From a virus, in the IMG/VR virus record IMGVR_UViG_3300027759_000537, positions 1-20,086 of that record: DNA of 20,086 nucleotides; one strand, given 5' to 3'. Under the pieces are notes generated by a model that worked only from the letters and a program-made list of their open reading frames with translations, had not been told where the DNA came from and made no database searches. Made by a program: the position numbers and the translations under genes. Positions 6,848 to 19,395 of the stretch are shown piece after piece. Each line of letters starts with the position of its first letter. Position 1 is the stretch's first letter.

Positions 6848-6867
6848 TAAAAAAAAATATAACTTTG
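6839..6867 (+). promoter_or_regulatory. promoter with near-leaderless spacing before the prohead protease
   Basis: TTTG at 6839-6842, a 17-base spacer, and TAACTTTG at 6860-6867 fit the Bacteroidota -33/-7 consensus. The ATG at 6873 is 5 bases after the box, so the transcript would start at or 1-2 bases before the ATG. The motif overlaps the end of the MuF-like gene. Confidence 0.6.
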
Positions 6868-9674: not shown

Positions 9675-10198
9675 TGGCATTCGCAGTAAGTTTAACTGGA
9701 TTTAAAGAACTTGAAGGCAAGTTAAATAACTTATCTACTGCATTAAAAGTTGATGTAAGTGATGAAATAAACGCATCTGCACTAAAAATAGAGAATCAGG
9801 CTAAAAGATTAGCACCTGTAAACTTTGGGCAATTAAGAAATTCAATAGCACTTACAAAAGATGGTGAGTTGACATATTCGGTTGCTGCTAACGCTTCGTA
9901 TTCTGCTTATGTTGAATTTGGCACAGGACCACAAGTAAATGTACCTGCTGACTTTAAATCTTATGCCCAACAATTTAAAGGTAAAAGCGGAGGTAAGTTT
10001 AAGGATATGGTTGAAGCATTAACTTTGTGGGTAAAGCGTAAAGGAATTGGCAATGGTAAAAATGATAAAGGTTTAGCTTATGTAATAGCTTTAAGCATAT
10101 TAAGAAAAGGTATGCGACCACAACCATTTTTAGTTCCAGCTTACGAAATGGAGAAACCTAAACTTATACAAAGACTAAATAAATTATTAAATGCTTAA
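9674..10198 (+). CDS. HK97 gp10-like neck/tail protein
   Basis: Predicted protein of 174 residues of the HK97 gp10-like family, found in the neck between head closure and tail terminator. Diagnostic pieces are APVNFGQLRNSI at 47-58 (family pattern AP.dTG.Lr.SI), YSAYVEFGTG at 76-85 and a C-terminal RPQPFLVPAYE. An extra glycine/lysine-rich loop (about residues 98-125) lies between the last two, and this inserted segment is variable in the family. The ATG overlaps the previous stop, and the end overlaps the next gene by 8 bases. Confidence 0.88.
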   Translation: MAFAVSLTGFKELEGKLNNLSTALKVDVSDEINASALKIENQAKRLAPVNFGQLRNSIALTKDGELTYSVAANASYSAYVEFGTGPQVNVPADFKSYAQQFKGKSGGKFKDMVEALTLWVKRKGIGNGKNDKGLAYVIALSILRKGMRPQPFLVPAYEMEKPKLIQRLNKLLNA

Positions 10199-10598
10199 TC
10201 CTAATATAGAAATAAAGAAATGGTTTTATACCAACTTGACAAGTTCAAGTGCATTACCTGTTTATGATGGGATTGCCCCTGATTCTGCAACTGATGAATA
10301 TATTATTATGACAGGCAGAACATCCGCACAGGATCAAGGTAAAATCAGTTACACCAACTCGGTTACCATTGATGTTGACATTGTCATAAAAAATAGTAAC
10401 TTTGGATATAAAAGAGCCGAAACGATAAGCAATTTAATACTAACTGCAATCAATTCCGACACGAATATTACCCTTGCAAATGGGTTTTATGCTTCAAGTT
10501 TGGTAGTTGGTGCAATTAGAAATTTAGATGGTTTAAACCCTTTGGACAATGTATTTAGAACAATAATAACTTACAATTTAATAATAACTCAAAATTAA
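10191..10598 (+). CDS. tail completion/terminator protein (DUF3168-like)
   Basis: Predicted protein of 135 residues. The pattern IKKWFYTNLTSSSALPVYDGIAPDSA, then EYIIMTGRTSAQDQGK and VDIDIVIKN-type strands, then AETISNLILTAI, matches the small tail terminator proteins (DUF3168-type, gpU-like) that cap the tail tube and join it to the neck. Location between the gp10-like gene and the tail tube gene is the canonical place. No catalytic motif is expected. Similarity is by pattern only. Confidence 0.72.
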   Translation: MLNPNIEIKKWFYTNLTSSSALPVYDGIAPDSATDEYIIMTGRTSAQDQGKISYTNSVTIDVDIVIKNSNFGYKRAETISNLILTAINSDTNITLANGFYASSLVVGAIRNLDGLNPLDNVFRTIITYNLIITQN

Positions 10599-10604
10599 AA
10601 TAAA

Positions 10605-11045
10605 ATGGCAGAAACAAAAGTAAGCGGTAGGGATTATATCCTTTTAGCTGACATAGACGGAGACGCAACATTTAAACCTGTTGCCTGTCTTACGACTAAC
10701 TCATTTACATCAACGAATGACACGATTGATGCAACTTCAAAGTGTGGTAATTCATACACACCAAGTCCTATATTTACTCAATCTTTTGAGTGTGAAGGAT
10801 TTGCAATTGATGAAACAGGAACTCCAAGTAAGGATTCTTACCAACAATTGTATGCAGCACATTATGCTAAAACATCTTTTAATATGAAGATGGGTAAAGC
10901 AACTCCAACTTCAGGAGATATAGTTTATTCAGGTCAAGTTTTTATTAGTGATTTTGCAGTTCAAGCTGATGATGCAGATGATGTTAAATTTACTGCAACA
11001 TTCGTAGTAACAACACCACCATTAACACAAACTGAAACTGCATAA
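10605..11045 (+). CDS. major tail tube protein
   Basis: Predicted protein of 146 residues, beta-rich, with the tail-tube order: a start KVSGRDYILLAD, a middle TSTNDTIDATSKCGNSY followed by TQSFECEGFAIDE, and a C-terminal VYSGQVFISDFAVQADDADDV then FTATFVV. This fits the TP901-1-type major tail proteins that stack as hexameric rings to form the tube. The position just before the tail assembly chaperones and the tape measure supports it. The length is on the short side for the family (about 130-200). It has a second, longer relative at 15405-16109. Confidence 0.85.
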   Translation: MAETKVSGRDYILLADIDGDATFKPVACLTTNSFTSTNDTIDATSKCGNSYTPSPIFTQSFECEGFAIDETGTPSKDSYQQLYAAHYAKTSFNMKMGKATPTSGDIVYSGQVFISDFAVQADDADDVKFTATFVVTTPPLTQTETA

Positions 11046-11049
11046 AACT

Positions 11050-11415
11050 ATGTTTGAATTAAGACTGAACAACAACAAAACAATCCCTTTGAAGTGGGGT
11101 ACTTGGGCGATGAAAAGATTTTGCGAATTAGAGAACAAATCTCTATTAGACTTAATCAATATTTTATCAAGTGGTGCATTTGAATTAGGAACAATAGTGC
11201 ATATAATTCAAGCATCTGCCGAAAGCGGATGTAAGACACTAAATCAACCAATTGAATTTAACGATGTTATCGTTTGCGATTGGATTGATGAGGTTGGTGG
11301 GTTATCTGCAAAGGATGGTCAGCTAATAGATTTTATTAAATTTATGCAGACTTCAATGATTCCTGAAACAAAAGAAAATGCCGAAGTAACCAAAGACAAA
11401 GGAAAAAAAAAATAG
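11050..11415 (+). CDS. tail assembly chaperone (gpG-like)
   Basis: Predicted protein of 121 residues, helical, with a conserved block NNKTIPLKWGTWAMKRFCELENKS and ASAESGCKTLNQPIEF, then DWIDEVGGLS. It ends in a charged tail (KENAEVTKDKGKKK). By position (between tail tube and tape measure) and by the frameshift at its end it is the gpG-equivalent chaperone that coats the tape measure during tail assembly and is absent from the virion. The stop at 11413-11415 follows an A10 run where part of the ribosomes would shift by -1 to make the G-T fusion. Confidence 0.85.
   Translation: MFELRLNNNKTIPLKWGTWAMKRFCELENKSLLDLINILSSGAFELGTIVHIIQASAESGCKTLNQPIEFNDVIVCDWIDEVGGLSAKDGQLIDFIKFMQTSMIPETKENAEVTKDKGKKK
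11403..11412 (+). other. programmed -1 ribosomal frameshift site (A10)
   Basis: The zero frame reads GGA AAA AAA AAA TAG. Ten A residues contain the slippery heptamer A AAA AAA. Slipping one base back avoids the stop and continues AAA ATA GGA ATA TAT AGC with no stop until 11718. This is the standard arrangement between the two tail chaperone frames in long-tailed phages. No strong stimulatory hairpin is obvious just downstream. On this A-rich run, transcriptional slippage could give the same product. Confidence 0.85.
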
Positions 11416-11720
11416 GAATATATAGCTGGGATTCAATAATTATTCTCGCAATAGAAGTTGGCTTGACAATTAATGAGTTTTGGCAACTTACTTGGCGGGA
11501 ATTTTTATTATATAAAAAGGCTTACGAGAATCAGCAGATAAAGGAATGGGAAAGGACAAGAACTTTAGCTTATATGATTTATAGGTCAAATTCAACGGAT
11601 AAAAATCCGAAAAGTATAAAGTCCTTCTTTCCTTTGCCTAGTGATGAAGTAGAAGAAGAAAAGCCTAAACTAACGGATGAACAACTAGCAAGGACATTAA
11701 AGTTGTACGGAGTAAAATAA
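11412..11720 (+). CDS. T part of the frameshifted tail assembly chaperone (gpGT-like)
   Basis: This frame is open from the A10 run to TAA at 11718-11720 and has no ATG near its start (the first usable codon is a TTG at 11463), so it is best read as the second half of a fusion with the upstream chaperone. The total would be about 223 residues (121 + 102). The sequence IYSWDSIIILAIEVGLTINEFWQ and then LTWREFLLYKKAYE matches the T-domain pattern, in which an aromatic WREF-like stretch contacts the tail tube. The C-terminus is charged and ends LARTLKLYGVK. The tape measure ATG follows 5 bases later. Confidence 0.8.
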   Translation: MGIYSWDSIIILAIEVGLTINEFWQLTWREFLLYKKAYENQQIKEWERTRTLAYMIYRSNSTDKNPKSIKSFFPLPSDEVEEEKPKLTDEQLARTLKLYGVK

Positions 11721-11724
11721 TAAA

Positions 11725-13410
11725 ATGGCACAAGAAACATTAAAAATTACGATAACGGCTGACAATAAACAAGCCGTTCAAAATATACAGGAAACTGTTA
11801 CTGCCACAACTCAAATGGGTGCTGCCTTTCAAAGGGTTGCACCTGCAACTAATCAAGTTAATCAGGCATTAGTAAATGTTTCAAGGGTTGCTCAAGATGC
11901 TCCGTATGGTTTTATTGGTATTGCGAATAACTTAAACCCTTTATTAGAATCATTCCAAAGATTAAAAGAGACAACAGGTTCAGCAGGTAGTGCTTTAAAA
12001 GAGATGGCAAAGGGTTTAATGGGTCCAGCAGGTATCGGTCTTGCATTGGGTGTGGTTTCATCTTTGATAGTAGCATTTGGTCCGAAAATAGCAAAGTTTA
12101 TTAATGGTACAAATGAAGCAAGTGAAGCACAAGATAAATTTAAGGAAAGTTTAGATAAGGCACGAGCATCCGCAAGTGAAAGTGGTATTAAATTACTTGC
12201 ATATATTAGAGTTGCTGAAGATGCAACAAATACTGATGCTAGGAGAAAAGAAGCATTAGATGCAGTTAGAAGCGAATTAAGTAAAGTAAATGCTTCATAC
12301 ACTACTACAATTAAGACAACCGATGATGCTAGAAAAGCAGTTACATTATATACTGATGCTTTAGTTGCACAAGCAATTACTTCAAGATATATTGATGAAA
12401 TTGCTGATAAAAATATAAAATTAGCAAATGCTACAAAATTAGCAAAGAAAGCTGGTGAAGATTATGCTGCAACTTTAGAAAGTTCTAAAAAAATGGTCAA
12501 TGGTTATGTTGATGTTTCGGCAACAATGGCACTCGTAACTAATAGAGATAAAAATGCTTTTGATGCAGCAAAAAAATCAGTAACGGATTTAACAAATGGA
12601 ATTGCAGATTTAAATAAAGAAGTATTTACAACAATAGATAATGCGTTAAAATCAAATAATCCATACTATGTAATGGATAAAAGTGCAAAAGAATTAGATA
12701 AAACTATTATAGAAGTAACTAAAAACTATAAAGCGTTTACTAAATTAACTGCCGAACAAGTTGGAACATTTTTACCAACTGATAAACCTGTTTCACCTGT
12801 TGCACCAGCAGCACCACAAATGTTAGGACAAAGAGGTCCATCACAAGCAATTATTGATGCAGCAGCAATATCGGCAGCTGATAAAGAATTAGCTAAATTT
12901 AATTACTTATTAAATGAGGCTGCTACAACGGCAACATTTTTAGCAGATGGAGTTGGTAATATATTTCAATCAATTGCTCAAGGTCAAAATATTGGAGAAT
13001 CAGTTTTAAGTGTATTTAAGGATTTAACTTTACAACTTGCTCAAATGGTTGTAAAGGCTTTAGTATTTAAAGCAATTATGAGTGCGTTAGGAATGGGTAA
13101 GGTTGTTGGAACAACAAGTGATTTAACAGGTGGTTTATTAGGTGGATTAGGAAAGTTATTAGGATTTACTCCAATGGCAGAAGGTGGAATAGTAAGCAAA
13201 CCAACATTTGCAATGGTAGGTGAGGGTGGCGAAAGTGAAGCCGTTATGCCTTTATCTAAATTAGATAGTATATTAGGTAGTGCATTTACAAGTGGTGCTA
13301 ATTCAGGTGGTGGAATGAGTAGCGGTTCATTTGTATTAAGAGGAAATGATTTGGTTTTAGCATTACAAAGGTCTAATTCATCATTAAATTTAAGGAGAGG
13401 TGGCATATAA
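11725..13410 (+). CDS. tail tape measure protein
   Basis: Sets tail length and is later ejected. 561 residues with long helical stretches: DNKQAVQNIQETVT at the start, a hydrophobic segment at about 95-120 (GPAGIGLALGVVSSLIVAF), heptad-rich helices in the middle, a second hydrophobic region at about 450-480, and the typical tape-measure end MAEGGIVSKPTFAMVGEGGE followed by AVMPLSKL. No lysozyme or peptidase domain is seen. At roughly 1.5 angstrom per residue the tail would be near 80-85 nm, an inference. It ends in a Gly/Ser-rich tail that overlaps the next gene by 11 bases. Confidence 0.92.
   Translation: MAQETLKITITADNKQAVQNIQETVTATTQMGAAFQRVAPATNQVNQALVNVSRVAQDAPYGFIGIANNLNPLLESFQRLKETTGSAGSALKEMAKGLMGPAGIGLALGVVSSLIVAFGPKIAKFINGTNEASEAQDKFKESLDKARASASESGIKLLAYIRVAEDATNTDARRKEALDAVRSELSKVNASYTTTIKTTDDARKAVTLYTDALVAQAITSRYIDEIADKNIKLANATKLAKKAGEDYAATLESSKKMVNGYVDVSATMALVTNRDKNAFDAAKKSVTDLTNGIADLNKEVFTTIDNALKSNNPYYVMDKSAKELDKTIIEVTKNYKAFTKLTAEQVGTFLPTDKPVSPVAPAAPQMLGQRGPSQAIIDAAAISAADKELAKFNYLLNEAATTATFLADGVGNIFQSIAQGQNIGESVLSVFKDLTLQLAQMVVKALVFKAIMSALGMGKVVGTTSDLTGGLLGGLGKLLGFTPMAEGGIVSKPTFAMVGEGGESEAVMPLSKLDSILGSAFTSGANSGGGMSSGSFVLRGNDLVLALQRSNSSLNLRRGGI
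13392..13397 (+). promoter_or_regulatory. Shine-Dalgarno-like AAGGAG before the GTG start of the hub gene
   Basis: AAGGAG lies inside the end of the tape measure gene, two bases before GTG at 13400. It is one of very few SD-like sites in the window. The spacing is shorter than usual, so its role is uncertain. Confidence 0.35.
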
Positions 13411-16131: not shown

Positions 16132-19100
16132 ATGGCAAATCAAATTGTAGTTTCAGCAGGTGCAAAAGTTAGGAATTTAAGTGGGGTTTTAACGGCTACA
16201 AGTGGAGTTGTCAGTTTTCTGCCTATTGATGTTTCATTAGGTATTCCGCAACTTGATGTCAATGGTAAGATTTTAGTAAGTCAGCTACCTAACTCGGTTA
16301 TGGAGTATAAAGGAACTTGGGATGCTTCTACAAACACACCAACCCTTGCAAATGGCACAGGAAATCAAGGGGATGTGTATTTATGTAATGTAGCAGGAAC
16401 AGTTAACTTTGGTGCTGGTCCTATTGCTTTTGTGGTAGGAGATCAAGTTATTTATAGTGGTTCAATATGGCAAAGGGCATCGGGATCAACAGGAACAGTT
16501 ACAAGTGTGGCGATTACTGAAAGCGGAGATTCTTTAAATATTACAGGCTCACCAATTACTACAAGCGGAACGATTAACATAGGGTTCAACGGAACAAATC
16601 TTCAATATGTAAACGGAGCAGGAAACTTGACAACCTTTCCTATATTAACAGGTTATGTGCCATATACAGGAGCAACCGCTAATCTTAATTTAGGGATTTA
16701 TTCATTTATTGCAAATGATGGAGCATACAATACTGAAATGTCTCCATCTTATTTTGGAGTAGAAAATGCAGCTGGAACTATATTTGGTTTATTAGAATAT
16801 AATAAATTAACCTTAACAAATAGCACAGGTGCAGGTTCAACTATGATAGTAAATGCTCAAGGGTTGATATTCCCTGATGCAAGTGTTCAAATAAGTTCAT
16901 ATACCGATGCAAAAGCAAGATTAGCATTAAGTTTAACAACAACAGGAACAAGTGGAGTAGCGACTTATAATAATACAACAGGGGTATTTAATATTCCTAA
17001 CTATGGTTCAGCCTTAACAGGCTATGTTCCCTACACAGGTGCAACTCAAGATGTAGATTTAGGTGCGTTTAAATTGAATGCTCAATCTTTACATATTAAA
17101 GGAACAGGAGGGAATGGACATTTAGGATTAAAGCATCAATCAGCAAGTGCAACCGCATCGGCTAATGAGGTGTCTTTATTTGCAGATAGTCTTGGAGATT
17201 TAAGTTGGTTAAATGGTAACTTATATTTAAGCAAGTTTATTACATCAGGTAATACTGCTGCAAGGTCTTATACATTCCCAAATGCAAATGGAACAGTTGC
17301 TTTAACAAGTGATTTATCAAATTATGTAGATTTAACTACTGCACAAACAATAGGTGGAACAAAGACTTTTACTGATGCTACTAAAAACAACGGAGGTATA
17401 TTTTTACAAAATGCTTCAAGTAGTTCATTAGCAGGATATATGAATTTAGGTGGATTGACTAATGGATTAAAGTTTACAAGTGGTGGTGGTATTAGTAATT
17501 CATTTACTTTGCCATCTGCAACAGGATATACTTTTACTTTCCCTAATGCAACAGGAACGATAGCTTTAACTAGCGATATTCCTTCATTGGTAGGATATGT
17601 TCCATATACAGGAGCAACAGGAGCGGTTGATTTAGGTGTTAATTCTTTAAGTGCATCATATTTATATTTGAACGGAGCAACTAGTCCAATGTCAGGTCAA
17701 CTTAATATGAAGATTGGAACAACTTCCCCAGGCAATACAGGAGGTTATTATAATATTTTGCCTTATTCTGATGGAAAGTTATATTTTACTTCATATTTAT
17801 CAAGTCTTTCTAACACAAGAATATTTATTTTAGATTCAGCCGGAATAACTGCAAATACACCAAGAACATTTACATTTCCTGATGCAAGTGGCACAATAGC
17901 ATTAGTTGGTGGCAGTGGTGTAGGAACAGTTACAAGCGTAGCTGCTTTAACAATAGGTACAAGTGGAACGGATTTAAGTTCAAGTGTTGCTAATAGTACA
18001 ACAACCCCTGTAATTACTTTAAATGTACCAACTGCGAGTGCAGCGAATAGAGGTGCATTATCAAGTGCGGATTGGACAACATTCAATTCAAAGCAGGGAA
18101 CAATAACCTTAACCACAACAGGGACAAGTGGTGCAGCGACCTTTAGTTCAAACACTTTAAATATTCCTAACTATGCTCCCGATTTAAGTGGATATGTAAC
18201 ATTAGCAACTACTCAAACAATAAGTGGTTTAAAAACATTTAGTAGTAATTTAACTGCTTATGGAACATTAACAATAGGACAAACAGGAGTTACTAATGGG
18301 ATTATAAATAGTAACGATGGAATGTACTTTAATATTGATGCAGATGCTTCAGGAAGTACACCTGAATTTATGTTTGGTAAAGGCAGAAGTGGAACAAGTG
18401 GTGGAACAACATTTCTTACTATAGCTAACACAGGAGCAGCTACATTCTCTGCAAATATTGCTTCAAGTGCATATACTAATGGTACTTTAATAGTAACAGG
18501 TGGAGTTGGAATAAGTGGTCAAATTTTTACTAATAATACTATTAATACAACTGATGGTTATTATTCAAGCAAAGCAGGTTCTGATAGTATAGGAAGTGGT
18601 GCATATATGCAATTTTCAAATATTGGATATATTCAAGCTAATGCAAGTAGTGGGTTAGATTTTTGGACTTTACCAACAGGTGGTGGTGGTTGGGAAAAAA
18701 GAATGAGATTAACAAATGGCGGTAATTTCTTAATAGGAACTACTACTGATTCAGGCTACAAGCTAGATGTTAATGGTACAGGAAGGTTTAGTGGAGCATT
18801 AACATCATATAATAATGGACTAGGATTATCTCTTAAATCAACTACTAATAATGGCAGTTATTTAGAATTTGCTCATAATTCAGCAGGTACTTATGCTTAT
18901 ATAGGAAGTGCTTATCACTTATTAGTAAGCCCTAATAATATAGCAAATAATTTAGCAATTAGAGCAGAAGGTGATTTGGTACTTACAACAGGTGGATATA
19001 CTCCAAGACTTACCATAGCATCCACAGGAGCAGCTACATTATCAAATTTAGCAGGTACAGGAAGCAGAGCAGTATTAGCTGATGCTAATGGTTTATTATC

Positions 19101-19395
19101 AGCACCTGTTTCCGATATATCAGTAAAGCAAAATATTACACCTATTGGTTATGGTTTAAATGAAATATCTAAAATGAATCCTGTATGGTTTGATTTTATT
19201 GATGAATATAAAAACTTTGGCGAAGGCAGACAAAATGGTAATATAGCACAAGAAATGGAAGCAATAATACCTGAAGCGGTATTTACTACTCCATCAACAG
19301 GTAAAAAGGGAATTAATTACGACCAATTACACGCAGTTTATATTAAAGCTATTCAGCAATTAGAGGAAAGAATAAAGCAATTAGAAAATAAATAA
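16132..19395 (+). CDS. long tail fibre with C-terminal S74 self-cleaving chaperone domain
   Basis: A 1087-residue fibre, presumably trimeric and receptor-binding. Residues 1-30 are a short cap, then LDVNGKILVSQLPNSVMEYKG starts the shaft. The shaft (130-980) is Gly/Thr/Ser-rich with internal repeats GYVPYTGAT (174, 297, 488), FPNAxGTxALTSD and TTTGTSGxAT...IPNY. The last 94 residues are the intramolecular chaperone (peptidase S74): SDISVKQNITPI with the catalytic pair S994 and K999, NGNIAQEMEAIIPEAV, INYDQLHAVYIKAIQQLEE. Cleavage before S994 would release the chaperone after trimer folding. The DNA has no ATG-proximal promoter motif, so it is probably transcribed with the gene before it. Confidence 0.93.
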   Translation: MANQIVVSAGAKVRNLSGVLTATSGVVSFLPIDVSLGIPQLDVNGKILVSQLPNSVMEYKGTWDASTNTPTLANGTGNQGDVYLCNVAGTVNFGAGPIAFVVGDQVIYSGSIWQRASGSTGTVTSVAITESGDSLNITGSPITTSGTINIGFNGTNLQYVNGAGNLTTFPILTGYVPYTGATANLNLGIYSFIANDGAYNTEMSPSYFGVENAAGTIFGLLEYNKLTLTNSTGAGSTMIVNAQGLIFPDASVQISSYTDAKARLALSLTTTGTSGVATYNNTTGVFNIPNYGSALTGYVPYTGATQDVDLGAFKLNAQSLHIKGTGGNGHLGLKHQSASATASANEVSLFADSLGDLSWLNGNLYLSKFITSGNTAARSYTFPNANGTVALTSDLSNYVDLTTAQTIGGTKTFTDATKNNGGIFLQNASSSSLAGYMNLGGLTNGLKFTSGGGISNSFTLPSATGYTFTFPNATGTIALTSDIPSLVGYVPYTGATGAVDLGVNSLSASYLYLNGATSPMSGQLNMKIGTTSPGNTGGYYNILPYSDGKLYFTSYLSSLSNTRIFILDSAGITANTPRTFTFPDASGTIALVGGSGVGTVTSVAALTIGTSGTDLSSSVANSTTTPVITLNVPTASAANRGALSSADWTTFNSKQGTITLTTTGTSGAATFSSNTLNIPNYAPDLSGYVTLATTQTISGLKTFSSNLTAYGTLTIGQTGVTNGIINSNDGMYFNIDADASGSTPEFMFGKGRSGTSGGTTFLTIANTGAATFSANIASSAYTNGTLIVTGGVGISGQIFTNNTINTTDGYYSSKAGSDSIGSGAYMQFSNIGYIQANASSGLDFWTLPTGGGGWEKRMRLTNGGNFLIGTTTDSGYKLDVNGTGRFSGALTSYNNGLGLSLKSTTNNGSYLEFAHNSAGTYAYIGSAYHLLVSPNNIANNLAIRAEGDLVLTTGGYTPRLTIASTGAATLSNLAGTGSRAVLADANGLLSAPVSDISVKQNITPIGYGLNEISKMNPVWFDFIDEYKNFGEGRQNGNIAQEMEAIIPEAVFTTPSTGKKGINYDQLHAVYIKAIQQLEERIKQLENK
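16651..17619 (+). repeat. three GYVPYTGAT-coding repeats in the fibre gene
   Basis: 27-base copies at 16651-16677, 17020-17046 and 17593-17619 encode GYVPYTGAT, each followed by a conserved xxxxDLGxxxL-type stretch. Synonymous changes between copies show selection at the protein level, consistent with repeated shaft modules, not a recent duplication. Confidence 0.85.
16933..18174 (+). repeat. TTTGTSG...NIPNY module, two copies in the fibre gene
   Basis: Copies at 16933-17004 and 18109-18174 encode LTTTGTSGxAT...NIPNY with different lengths between the ends. Between them lie FPNAxGTxALTSD-type copies at 17275-17313, 17539-17577 and a diverged one at 17875-17904. The modules alternate, so the shaft is built of a small set of reused units. 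Confidence 0.75.

Follow-up and report, generated by a model that had tools for sequence, protein, structure and literature searches.

Where two overlapping reading frames meet at a homopolymer, as they do between two tail genes of this virus, the question is whether they are expressed as one fused protein and, if so, whether it is the ribosome or the RNA polymerase that slips. The window, that is, the whole stretch of DNA analysed, comprises the 20,086 bases of a viral record and has a GC content of 34.5%. Its tail genes from the terminator to the tape measure, together with the junction and the RNA features described below, are on the + strand.

The G and T frames and their setting

The upstream gene, G (11050..11415), encodes a zero-frame product of 121 amino acids reading ...DKGKKK*, with GGA AAA AAA AAA TAG as its last codons; the ten A's form a run at 11403..11412, and the stop codon TAG (11413..11415) follows immediately on its 3' side. 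The -1 frame is open from 11367, just past a TGA at 11364-11366, to a stop at 11718-11720. The T domain (11412..11720, 102 amino acids plus stop) is read in this frame, with a translation that begins IGIYSWDSIIILAIEVG... An earlier note on this DNA had described the zero-frame end and a -1 frame open to 11720, as the reading frames confirm, and had remarked that the second frame has no nearby ATG; the first possible start is a TTG at 11463, and no ATG, GTG or TTG precedes it. A slippery heptamer of the X_XXY_YYZ type is present in frame, as A_AAA_AAA inside GGA AAA AAA AAA. Nine-A matches occur three times in the window, where dinucleotide shuffles give an expected 5.0; the A10 run by itself is not beyond chance at 34.5% GC, and it is its conservation that is. 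The sole other run of at least eight A's in the window is an A9 at 6849-6857, intergenic and just past a stop codon.

The gene order around the junction is that of a siphophage tail module: an HK97-gp10-like gene, the tail terminator (10191..10598; phrog_176, E 2.9e-5), the major tail protein (10605..11045; phrog_1407, E 9e-19, with PF06199 above its cut-off), G, T and the tape measure protein (11725..13410; phrog_12798 tape measure, E 3.9e-8). For T, the matches are the C-terminal half of the phrog_441 tail assembly chaperone (E 6e-5), phrog_16333 (E 2.4e-13) and, weakly, PF06223 Phage_tail_T (E 0.0023, below the Pfam cut-off). G by itself gives weak profile matches only (phrog_4224, 0.0023; no Pfam match). 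In the fused relative L146, phrog_441 spans both halves (residues 42-180, E 6.9e-4). The T frame overlaps G in -1 and has no start of its own ahead of the conserved domain, and the pair lies between the major tail protein and the tape measure. Frame, gene order and conservation of T support the earlier proposal that the A10 run is a -1 recoding site of a G/GT tail chaperone pair.

Other searches were less informative. The G query alone had no match in the phage collection, the genome contigs scanned for T relatives yielded none, and PDB sequence searches returned nothing meaningful. AlphaFold models were too poor to use (mean pLDDT 61.5 for T and 42.2 for G), and the VIA-align comparison of the T model with 11 chains gave a best Z of 2.2, with tail chaperones absent from the list.

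By T and major tail protein, the closest named relatives are phages of Flavobacterium and Cellulophaga, from which we infer a Bacteroidota host; on sequence kinship, the window is probably a siphophage of a Flavobacteria-like host. Further downstream, at 16132-19395, the window also carries a long fibre-like ORF with repeated GYVPYTGAT-type motifs, the end of which resembles an intramolecular chaperone domain.

Conservation of the frame relation and of the run

Relatives were gathered with four T queries (window, phi17:1, 11b and phi10:1), a G query and a run-blind pattern; three of the relative lists comprise the best 80 of 184, 252 and 104, and the pattern scan comprises the matches listed. 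Of the 388 sources with a T match, a count that takes in the window, 37 ended too close to the junction on the upstream or downstream side, and 133 had a region identical to that of another source; the 351 with sufficient sequence gave 218 distinct 550-nt junctions among the matches listed. At these, the T frame is in -1 in 214, in +1 in three (Cellulophaga isolates) and in frame in one (L146), and the run is A9 to A11 in 217, that is, at least nine A's in all but phi10:1, which has A8. When the junctions listed were clustered at 85% identity, 39 of the 40 clusters had at least nine A's in all members, as did 23/24 at 80%, 9/10 at 75% and 6/7 at 70%, the clusters sharing descent and not being independent. 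A set of 149 listed loci with both halves, which includes the window copy and repeat fetches of some contigs and from which 6 of 155 loci missing one half were dropped, has T in -1 at 148 loci, with L146 again the one case of T in frame. The overlapping frames, the T domain read from the run onward and the length of the run are conserved across these relatives.

The exactness of the run bears on whether a sequencing error in the homopolymer accounts for the break between the frames, a reading that we find hardly credible. Homopolymers are error-prone, and several isolate genomes seem one A short compared with their kin. However, the run-blind scan found exactly A10 at 104 of the 105 usable loci listed and A11 at one (of 113 loci examined, 8 lacked enough upstream sequence), and these loci come from many metagenomes. 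The 11b group has a different exact length, A9 in 37/37 usable loci (1/38 was too short); in one further locus set, 4/76 loci were too short. These data already contradict the error reading. The earlier note had envisaged that a corrected A9 or A11 might place both parts in one frame; in the window's clade this is unlikely, the assemblies of many metagenomes agreeing on A10.

The same comparison addresses whether T is instead translated separately, by reinitiation after the TAG or from an internal start, with no fusion made. Annotators do assign T its own start, both in the Cellulophaga phages and in 11b, where the ATG lies within the domain. In 38 of the 40 cluster representatives among the matches listed, however, the T frame is free of ATG, GTG and TTG up to the 3' end of the run, and the other two come from Cellulophaga groups in which the representative's T is in +1. 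Moreover, the T residues between the run and the first start are conserved although some of their codons vary. In L146 (3001-3645), the A10 run is kept but bases just upstream are missing, so that G and T form one continuous frame, a natural single-frame fusion in which a slip would give the short form. Because T residues upstream of any start are conserved, because most representatives have no such start and because L146 reads through in a single frame, a G-T fusion is supported and separate translation of T appears very unlikely.

Run length, RNA structure and the level of slippage

The codons that spell the run differ between groups. The window's family uses GGA AAA AAA AAA TAG and GAA AAA AAA AAT TAG, both giving A10, and elsewhere GTT AAA AAA AAA G and GTA AAA AAA AAG G both give A9. 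The 11b/phi10 group has 91 listed junctions with T in -1. In seven of them an A precedes the Lys codons, and the third of these codons is AAG six times and AAA once; in the 84 with another base at that place, the third codon is always AAA. Outside the run, AAG makes up 190/835 Lys codons. The third Lys is therefore AAG only after a preceding A, which keeps the run total at nine, the seventh preceding-A junction being A11. In the first register, an in-frame A_AAA_AAA with three Lys codons would likewise give A9; it is the GAA AAA AAA AAT junctions and the AAG swaps that a heptamer-plus-three-Lys account fails to explain.

Elsewhere in coding sequence such runs are scarce. As a control, 143,868 nt of coding sequence away from the junction, taken from the 40 representative sources, were compared with synonymous shuffles (n=300), the ORFs being mechanically called (ATG, at least 100 codons, one strand) and not annotated genes. 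Runs of at least eight A's numbered 9 against 24.5 expected and runs of at least nine numbered 2 against 9.0, with 0/300 shuffles as low in either case. Exact A7 in the A_AAA_AAA phase was mildly avoided (29 against 36.3; 18/300 as low), and in-frame A_AAA_AAG was not (10 against 11.1; 127/300 as low). Among the other coding runs of A7 or more, 2/89 reach nine A's, as against 39/40 junction clusters, these clusters not being independent. Long runs are thus avoided, in contrast to A_AAA_AAG, everywhere but at the junction, which suggests that selection acts on run length at the junction and that RNA polymerase slippage is a likely contributor to recoding. The earlier note had raised such slippage as a possibility, and the retention of at least nine A's in nearly every listed cluster, with such runs avoided elsewhere, makes it a serious one. 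The avoidance may itself stem from replication slippage.

Published observations on transcription point both ways. In the accessible part of PMC1088944, selection against A/T runs is described as evident at nine in a large proportion of bacterial genomes. Insertions during transcription of A/T runs are mostly single bases and increase with run length, according to the available sections of PMC5574713, which predicts the -1 relation. E. coli RNA polymerase, in the text available from PMC6260861, slips more readily on poly(T) than on poly(A), which counts against a strong polymerase effect.

Plain ribosomal shifting would likewise account for the near-uniform -1 relation, and it is the better match to the stem found downstream in the window's clade. 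The earlier note had seen no strong stem, a statement that does not hold: a conserved RNA stem lies 3' of the run at 11435..11509, pairing 11435-11439 with 11505-11509 and 11442-11449 with 11495-11502, with an inner helix of 11456-11460 and 11484-11488. Downstream of the run, the window sequence has a better fold than its shuffled versions (z -3.1), and synonymous-shuffle z values range from -2.3 to -5.8 (mean -4.05) in 6/6 clusters of the window's family, against a mean of -0.52 and a lowest value of -2.19 in the other 34. Among 31 distinct sequences of the family, the two stem helices pair in 98.5% and 99.6% of cells, with one-sided changes only, and RNAalifold predicts the stem. The Leu codon CTC, used for 4/478 Leu in the window genes, occupies the stem position in 106/106 of the matches listed. 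The stem is thus conserved and is probably a real RNA structure. It lies downstream, where a stimulator of ribosomal shifting would be expected, and speaks for some ribosomal slippage in the window's clade and against a purely transcriptional route.

A nearer hairpin, directly 3' of the run (11415..11434) in sister clades, is badly formed in the window and lies outside the RNAalifold consensus. It is formed in 91.9% of cells among the same 31 sequences, with one pair changed on both sides (G-C in 12, A-U in 9, G-U in 2 and unpaired in 8). The covariation behind the downstream structure is thin: as many two-sided pairs arise in 108/500 column shuffles, and none falls within the RNAalifold consensus.

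A purely ribosomal -1 frameshift as in lambda, with tandem tRNA-Lys slipping on A_AAA_AAA, the stem as stimulator in the window's clade and no useful part for transcription, is accordingly a reading to be taken seriously, though on balance we consider it somewhat doubtful. Besides the -1 relation at nearly all listed junctions, the stem and its CTC codon, it draws on the description of the GT shift in lambda and other phages as ribosomal (in the portion of PMC5009743 available) and on two tail-chaperone fs-genes that showed 6% and 7% frameshifting when tested (in the accessible part of PMC3711429). Seven A's would be sufficient for such a shift, however, and yet at least nine are kept in almost all listed clusters. 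Beyond the window's clade, the remaining 34 clusters have little structure out of the ordinary, and RNAalifold predicted zero pairs in 32 representatives of the 11b/phi10 group. The main helix of the window-clade stem begins 22 nt beyond the run, a longer spacing than is usual for frameshift stimulators. In Flavobacterium johnsoniae, which may not be the window's host, Shine-Dalgarno sequences are rarely used and shifting at prfB is poor, as stated in the available text of PMC12421855.

We lean slightly towards a slip that takes place partly at the RNA polymerase, with ribosomal -1 slippage and the stem acting on the same run in the window's clade. Most expression would yield G, halted at the TAG right after the A10 run, and a minority of events would shift -1 on the run to give a G-T fusion that, by analogy with lambda, would bridge the tape measure and the major tail protein. 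RNA polymerase would add one A to runs of at least nine, one extra A being equivalent to a -1 shift, and in the window's clade ribosomes would also slip by -1 on the in-frame A_AAA_AAA, aided by the conserved downstream stem. That the fusion is expressed, what it does and how far polymerase and ribosome each contribute to the slip are inferred from these features of the sequence.

Known recoding systems and isolate phages

The lambda gpG/gpGT pair and the conserved frameshift of tail assembly chaperones were reportedly described by Xu et al. 2004. The accessible part of PMC5009743 describes a lambda G/GT arrangement like that of the window, located between the major tail protein and the tape measure and with overlapping frames, a -1 relation, a short G and an extended GT. 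The lambda-type slip site is a seven-base heptamer, in place of which the window site has a run of at least nine A's. In six AT-rich Firmicutes siphophages, the last 120 nt of G contain at most 4-7 A's in a run, and in one of these, A118, no -1 extension was seen. Programmed transcriptional slippage at A9/T9 is described for Thermus dnaX, Shigella mxiE and IS elements in the available parts of PMC1088944 and PMC5009743. The window group resembles these systems in its uninterrupted run of at least nine A's, conserved in length, and in the avoidance of long runs elsewhere in coding sequence; it differs in that the window's clade has a downstream stem too. No report of transcriptional slippage at tail assembly chaperones was found in the accessible portions of the listed open PMC papers on tail assembly chaperones, phage tails, Bacteroidetes and Flavobacterium.

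Flavobacterium phage 11b and Cellulophaga phages phi10:1, phi12:1, phi12:3, phi17:1, phi18:1 and phi18:2 have the same tail gene order at the junction as the window, with a run of A8-A10. T is in -1 in 11b (A9) and phi17:1 (A10), and in +1 in phi12:1, phi12:3, phi18:1 and phi18:2 (A9) and in phi10:1 (A8). The Cellulophaga contrast, A9/+1 in L156, L276, L277 and L278 against A10/-1 in L157, was considered as proof of transcriptional slippage and dropped, homopolymer undercalls being sufficient to explain it; the +1 cases may be such undercalls or real length polymorphism. The sequencing method of the Cellulophaga genomes was not found in the available part of PMC11946311.

In four more Bacteroidota phages, the analysis covered 1,700 nt upstream of the tape measure gene; P12024S has no annotated tape measure to anchor such a comparison. 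Croceibacter phage P2559S (L402:14700-14800) has a G/T-like overlap at A8 with T in +1, so that A8 or A9 with T in +1 is seen in three lineages (phi10:1; phi12:1 with the phi18 group; P2559S). A recognisable overlapping G/T pair was not found within this distance in P12002L, 6H or RAP44; 6H has an A9 inside an upstream ORF that precedes a DUF4468 gene. In the GC-rich Salinibacter phage 5_3 (L279:1307-1900), the two genes ahead of the tape measure overlap within a G-rich stretch and lack an A run.

Considering all of this, the best reading of the locus is a lambda-type G/GT pair on a poly-A site, recoded by transcriptional slippage, ribosomal -1 shifting or both. It is quite possible, if short of probable, that a large group of probable Bacteroidota siphophages makes its tail chaperone pair mainly through polymerase slippage on at least nine A's, which would replace or supplement the ribosomal shift, and that the window's clade has added a stem-loop, so that one site would be recoded at two levels. 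Lambda G:GT serves in textbooks as an example of ribosomal frameshifting. According to the accessible text of PMC5009743, tail assembly in lambda depends critically on the G:GT ratio, and if run-length-dependent polymerase slippage sets this ratio in the present group, the same outcome would have been reached by another machine. Isolated phages such as phi18:1 would allow a direct test of the idea, and annotators gain a simple rule for merging two hypothetical proteins.
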